Assembly: GCA_902596545.1 (NCBI GenBank)
Contig: CACJUH010000006.1
Span: forward strand, 1 to 64,000
Direction of reading: 5' to 3'
Source: an uncultured Candidatus Actinomarina sp.
GTDB lineage: Bacteria > Actinomycetota > Acidimicrobiia > Actinomarinales > Actinomarinaceae
DNA length: 64,000 bases
The notes below the pieces were generated by a model that saw nothing but the letters and a program-made list of their open reading frames with translations, did not search any database and had not been told where the DNA came from. The translations under genes and the position numbers were made by a program. This document shows positions 8,595-37,229 of the stretch, piece after piece. Each line of letters begins with the position of its first letter. Within the stretch, counting starts at the first letter, position 1.

Positions 8595-8705
8595 TTCTCC
8601 TTTTATAGGAGAAGGATTTGACTACTTAGTTGCATTTCTGCCACATCTTCAAGCACCTTGGATAGTCTTCCAGGTTGCCGAGGTCTTAACCTTCTCTTTA
8701 TGTTC
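8595..8705 (-). promoter_or_regulatory. SAM-I/IV-clan riboswitch plus SD-sequestering expression platform upstream of metY
   Basis: Reverse strand: AAAGAGAAGGTTAAGACCTCGGCAACCTGGAAGACTATCCAAGGTGCTTGAAGATGTGGCAG, then TTCTCCT-ATAAA-AGGAGAA hairpin containing the SD. Confidence 0.82.
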
Positions 8706-37137: not shown

Positions 37138-37229
37138 GGAGGTGAATGAGCGCCTGGTGGGCTCCACAGTCTTCAAAACTGTTGAAAGGTGTAAAAGTCT
37201 TTGGCAGGTTCGATTCCTGTCCACCTCCG
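37138..37229 (+). tRNA. selC: tRNA-Sec, anticodon TCA at 37173-37175
   Basis: Acceptor GGAGGTG/CACCTCC; anticodon stem ACAGT/ACTGT with loop CTTCAAA; long variable arm; T-loop TTCGATT; 92 nt. Confidence 0.93.

Follow-up and report, generated by a model that had tools for sequence, protein, structure and literature searches.

SAM-I/IV riboswitches were described from metagenomes as Rfam family RF01725, named SAM-I-IV-variant (PMC2864571), and the features that distinguish them from SAM-IV riboswitches have been laid out (PMC6890682). Strand exchange is a general riboswitch mechanism (PMC10907184), and the P1-regulated riboswitches are defined by use of the P1 3' strand as the switching strand (PMC11477058). 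The stretch analyzed here (the window; 64,000 nucleotides) belongs to a draft genome of Candidatus Actinomarina (1.10 Mb, 17 contigs), and the metY leader that it contains departs from the P1-regulated definition, as the complementary partner in this leader is formed by J1/2 and the 5' strand of P2. From sequence and folding models, and with a probability of roughly 0.75, we read the metY leader as a SAM-I/IV riboswitch that would turn translation OFF at high SAM by strand exchange.

The switch site is located on the minus strand between two genes of methionine metabolism: metK (9825-8737), encoding methionine adenosyltransferase (TIGR01034, 352 bits), and metY (8589-7309), encoding an O-acetylhomoserine aminocarboxypropyltransferase of 426 aa (NCBIfam TIGR01326, 545.5 bits against a cut-off of 495.1). 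The metY AUG occupies 8589-8587 and the leader spans 8708-8590, both on the minus strand. On the same strand, a consensus scan placed a -10 element TATAAT, preceded by TG, at 8717-8712 and a weak -35 candidate TTTAGA at 8741-8736. In the other metY loci compared, TATAAT, nearly always as GATATAAT, again abuts the 5' end of the aptamer, and because of this recurring position the metY mRNA should start approximately at P1, near 8705. Around the -10 element, just past the metK stop codon, 8733-8704 holds an A+T-rich inverted repeat with perfect arms of 11 bp (TCTTAAAAATT / AATTTTTAAGA); relatives inspected by eye are without it. Elsewhere in the window (37138-37228), this streamlined genome encodes a full-length selenocysteine tRNA (RF01852, 75.4 bits).

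Upstream of metY, positions 8708-8616 of the minus strand match RF01725 over the full model (1-99) with 74.0 bits (E 1.7e-10; gathering cut-off 41.1 bits). The only other match in the genome precedes metK (9941-9851, minus strand, 61.6 bits), and RF01725 matches were detected in 34 of 42 Actinomarinales genomes. The SAM-I model RF00162 and the SAM-IV model RF00634 gave zero matches in the genome, with the positive controls working for both, and membership of the metY leader in either class was ruled out on this ground. A sequence-only reading of this DNA had proposed a SAM riboswitch before metY and a comparison with the SAM covariance models; that comparison upholds the proposal and assigns the class. 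Judged by its sequence, the leader is a real SAM-I/IV riboswitch by family, and as such it would be expected to bind SAM. A search for phage carriage of the finding returned no match, and two homologues in viral contigs were unrelated.

The Infernal (cmscan) alignment resolves the anatomy of the aptamer, with all elements on the minus strand: P1 is formed by ACAU/AUGU (8703-8700 with 8646-8643), P2 by G8694:C8680 together with AGGU/ACCU (8692-8689 with 8684-8681), P3 spans 8679-8652, and the P4 hairpin GCA-GAAA-UGC follows P1 at 8641-8632. P2 contains a single bulged A and shows no internal loop or kink-turn split; an unsplit P2 was taken as a mark of SAM-I/IV after PMC2864571 and PMC6890682. 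The pseudoknot PK-2 pairs GACUA in the P3 loop (8667-8663), read from the sequence, with UAGUC (8624-8620), placed from sequence and alignment four nucleotides upstream of the switching sequence. This pairing is maintained across the metY leaders in the alignment. In the metF leaders it appears as GGCUA/UAGCC, changed on both sides, and in metK leaders several other complementary pairs occupy its place, these having been found by a complementarity search and thus being somewhat favoured. A second pseudoknot, PK-1 as UAAG/CUUG, is possible in the window; it is broken in other leaders (CUAG, CCUG), which agrees with its absence.

In the same alignment GAGAAGG (8696-8690, minus strand), which is invariant in 31/31 metY leaders, comprises the end of J1/2 and the 5' strand of P2, in line with the earlier suggestion that it lies partly in the aptamer core and P2. 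As this segment is not P1, its pairing with CCUUCUC is predicted to destroy the SAM-binding fold; since that helix excludes the SAM fold, SAM should free CCUUCUCC to mask the Shine-Dalgarno (SD) sequence, giving OFF control at the level of translation, a direction that would fit the expectation for a methionine gene. The sequence-only reading had found the SAM-favoured state not obvious, and the anatomy of the aptamer now settles it, by inference, for OFF. It had also noted that GAGAAGG taken as part of P1 would predict an ON switch, in which SAM would stabilize GAGAAGG:CCUUCUC in the manner of P1 and expose the SD. Although this helix, like a P1, joins distant strands and encloses the aptamer, Infernal places P1 elsewhere, the SAM fold needs GAGAAGG in J1/2-P2, and induction by SAM would make little sense for metY and metK; the ON reading was therefore discarded as extremely improbable.

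Central to the OFF switch is the sequence CCUUCUCC (8615-8608, minus strand), which adjoins PK-2 on its 3' side and was delimited from pair counts in 31 leaders and from fold ensembles. Seven perfect pairs connect CCUUCUC (8615-8609) to GAGAAGG in an anti-aptamer (ON) helix, and seven perfect pairs connect UUCUCCU (8613-8607) to AGGAGAA (8601-8595), the SD region, which forms the 3' arm of a masking hairpin with a 5-nt loop (8606-8602). On the sequence, all three strands lie where the sequence-only reading had placed them. Of the perfect 7-bp hairpin seven nucleotides before the AUG that it described, the seven pairs stand, while the spacing applies to the end of the GGAG core, the hairpin itself ending 5 nt before the AUG. 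Scanning between the aptamer and the AUG found no intrinsic terminator, which agrees with the translational switch proposed earlier. In sequence and models, the same stretch can thus enter either a helix that disrupts the aptamer or, to its exclusion, one that masks the SD, as in a strand-exchange translational OFF switch. Shuffling of the 28 nt that precede the SD recreated TTCTCC in 1.0% of cases and TTCTCCT in 0.2%. Because GAGAA is common to GAGAAGG and the SD, complementarity to one automatically gives five pairs with the other; the independent evidence for dual pairing is the two extra nucleotides used by the anti-aptamer helix alone.

To follow both helices across the genus, pairs were counted by anchored positions rather than from MAFFT alignment columns in 31 distinct metY leaders, which come from one genus and represent close relatives rather than independent samples. 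The sequence-only reading had hinged on at least one of the alternative helices being conserved; both are maintained in this set, while adjacent spacer and loop bases vary. Among the seven anti-aptamer pairs, six are standard in 31/31 leaders (one of them G-C in 25 and G-U in 6), and the remaining one is A-C in 3 leaders and A-U in the other 28. Of the core masking pairs, six in number, five are likewise standard in 31/31 and the sixth in 28/31; the extra U-A pair at the loop end of the hairpin is special to the window leader. The GGAGAA core is present in all metY leaders except one, which has GGAGAG. Little covariation is seen, because the aptamer fixes GAGAAGG and the ribosome fixes GGAGAA. 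The YC dinucleotide 5' of UUCUCC (8615-8614), which is unable to pair in the masking hairpin, is more telling: the C adjoining UUCUCC is invariant, the base before it is C in 25 leaders and U in 6, and the two always stand opposite the aptamer GG, whereas the next base 5' may be U, A, G or C. Such a pattern would be expected under selection on the anti-aptamer helix itself. In three leaders one pair is lost by a U to C change; their spacers allow an extension, AACC:GGUU, which formed in the forced anti-aptamer fold of one of them (L003). For 29/31 metY leaders, 95 or more of 100 spacer shuffles fell below the joint score for the same nucleotides having two partners; this score averaged 4.66 against 1.15 for shuffled spacers.

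Folding models were then compared for the two states. With the aptamer imposed, the probability that the SD is paired, P(SD paired), was about 1.00 in the window leader and 0.99 on average in the genus; with the anti-aptamer helix imposed and the RNA ending at the AUG, it was 0.08 and 0.05, respectively. The unconstrained window leader, ending at the AUG or 12 nt past it, gave a probability of the anti-aptamer helix of 0.36-0.40 and was thus nearly balanced; once 30 nt of coding sequence were included, this probability was 0.03 (genus median 0.04) and the masked state dominated. In a growing transcript with CCUUCUCC already out and the SD still to be made, the same probability was 0.99-1.00. 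As the equilibrium model has no clean ON state, the ON state must arise from transcription order or ribosome loading; the models make a co-transcriptional switch plausible and do not clearly support a switch at equilibrium. When the loop-end pairs were removed in silico by C8608A/U8607A, P(SD paired) was 0.01 in the free ensemble and still 0.74 under an imposed aptamer.

The dominance of the masking hairpin in the free ensemble once coding sequence is included is also what one would expect of an OFF switch that works without any anti-aptamer helix, in which SAM and PK-2 promote the SD hairpin or set its position, with the complementarity to GAGAAGG as a by-product of the common GAGAA. Five of the seven anti-aptamer pairs indeed follow from SD complementarity alone, and PK-2 of SAM-I/IV is reportedly tied to the switch, as Trausch is said to have found in 2014. 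Nevertheless, the conserved YC serves the anti-aptamer helix only, and a hairpin lacking an alternative partner would form with or without SAM: in silico removal of CC 8614-8615 left P(SD paired) at 0.99 in both states. We regard this alternative as unlikely. A further possibility is that the aptamer is real and the hairpin merely tunes translation start constitutively, with little response to SAM at metY. A strong hairpin of 6-7 bp by itself lowers initiation, and equilibrium models retain it in most leaders; however, the aptamer is conserved and lies within a few nucleotides of the promoter, and no aptamer-free metY leader was seen among the genomes compared (two aptamer-negative genomes offered no metY leader, as the match in G036 starts at a contig edge and G031 has a distant homologue only). 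Constitutive tuning is accordingly judged very unlikely, well behind the hairpin-only switch.

Under strand exchange, RNA polymerase would produce the aptamer first, i.e., P1, P2, P3, P4, and PK-2. With SAM bound, P2 and PK-2 would be locked, so that the emerging CCUUCUCC would find its P2 partner occupied and pair instead with the next-emerging SD, AGGAGAA, blocking the ribosome start. Without SAM, CCUUCUC would invade the aptamer and pair with GAGAAGG, destroying the SAM site; CCUUCUCC would be consumed in the anti-aptamer helix, the SD would stay open, and metY would be translated. We infer SAM binding, this succession of steps in the cell, and its consequence for translation, whereas the aptamer family and the two conserved, mutually exclusive helices are apparent from sequence and models.

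The analysis was extended to the remaining SAM-I/IV leaders of the genus. The metK leaders (23 distinct; 9941-9826 in the window) have spacers that differ from those of metY and change faster between species. In most of them a spacer segment pairs with near certainty with the aptamer 5' strand while the SD is still to be transcribed, and imposing the aptamer leaves the SD masked. In leader L011, for example, GGAGAGAG:CUCUCUCC competes with CUCUCC:GGAGAG, and its relative L093 carries UUCUCC:GGAGAA, a compensated change. The mean joint score of metK leaders was 3.26 against 1.21 for shuffled spacers, with only 8/23 leaders reaching the top 5% of shuffles. SAM-I/IV leaders of metF, encoding methylenetetrahydrofolate reductase, were found in two genomes; one (L118) may switch through GCAUUU:AAAUGC at P1. 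In the other (L119), UUUCUUC:GAAGAAA complementarity encloses the start codon.

In three other Actinomarina genomes a different SAM-I/IV aptamer, with an intrinsic terminator behind it, stands before unrelated or unknown genes, one of which weakly matches a hydrolase family. These leaders are L114 (from position 357, plus strand) and, on the minus strand, L115 and L116 (around G018:C3:65988-66087 and G032:C1:41599-41698). In L115 and L116, GCAUCAG of the aptamer pairs with CUGAUGU while the terminator that contains the latter is still unfinished, and by sequence GCAUCAG can act as an antiterminator; the match in L114 is weaker. The metK, metF, and terminator-type leaders all employ the 5' side of the aptamer, and the renewed pairing of the metK and terminator-type leaders with this strand, through other sequences, argues further against complementarity as a by-product at metY. 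We tentatively propose, at slightly less than even odds, that the SAM-I/IV platforms of Candidatus Actinomarina share one design rule: a downstream strand invades the aptamer 5' side (P1 5' strand, J1/2 or P2 5' strand) and not the P1 3' strand, in a translational version (metY, metK, and probably metF) and in a terminator version before accessory genes. Invasion from the 5' side is plausibly explained by P4 and PK-2 occupying the 3' side in SAM-I/IV aptamers. Outside the genus, a crude helix search against shuffles found nothing convincing at 18 loci of the class for which a start codon, itself uncertain, was located.

If correct, the proposed switch provides a testable mechanism for SAM-I/IV in a marine bacterium that ranks among the smallest free-living ones and for which there is no genetics. 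It would also illustrate how strand exchange remains possible, by invasion of the aptamer 5' side, for a riboswitch whose 3' side is engaged in a pseudoknot. The genus offers natural repeats of this solution: conserved at metY, rapidly changing at metK, and in a terminator version. The aptamer family is known, while the expression platform is newly worked out here; a literature search, whose scope did not include the SAM-I/IV crystal-structure paper, found no description of 5'-strand alternative pairing or of the platform, which does not suffice to call the platform new.

Among known systems, the metY leader resembles the described SAM-I/IV riboswitches (RF01725) in its full-model match, in P1, P2 without an internal loop, P3, P4, and PK-2, in its marine source, and in its position before methionine genes. 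It differs in that the Rfam consensus ends with aggag just past PK-2, whereas PK-2 and the metY start codon are set apart by a distinct switching sequence of 8 nt and a hairpin. With SAM-IV (RF00634; PMC6890682) it has in common the PK-2 pseudoknot and a hairpin after P1; SAM-IV, in contrast, has a split P2a/P2b and PK-1, neither of which is supported in the metY leader, which has no RF00634 match. SAM-I (RF00162), including the translational SAM-I riboswitch of Xanthomonas (PMC7270179), is similar in the kind of ligand site, in OFF control, and in an SD masked by a hairpin when SAM is bound, but the metY leader does not match RF00162 and its switching partner would be the J1/2-P2 5' strand. 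The SAM-V riboswitch before metY, known from marine Pelagibacter (PMC6061858), shares the marine setting, the gene, and translational OFF control by SAM; it is an unrelated H-type pseudoknot that occludes the SD directly, whereas the Actinomarina metY leader would reach the same outcome by strand exchange through a separate hairpin.
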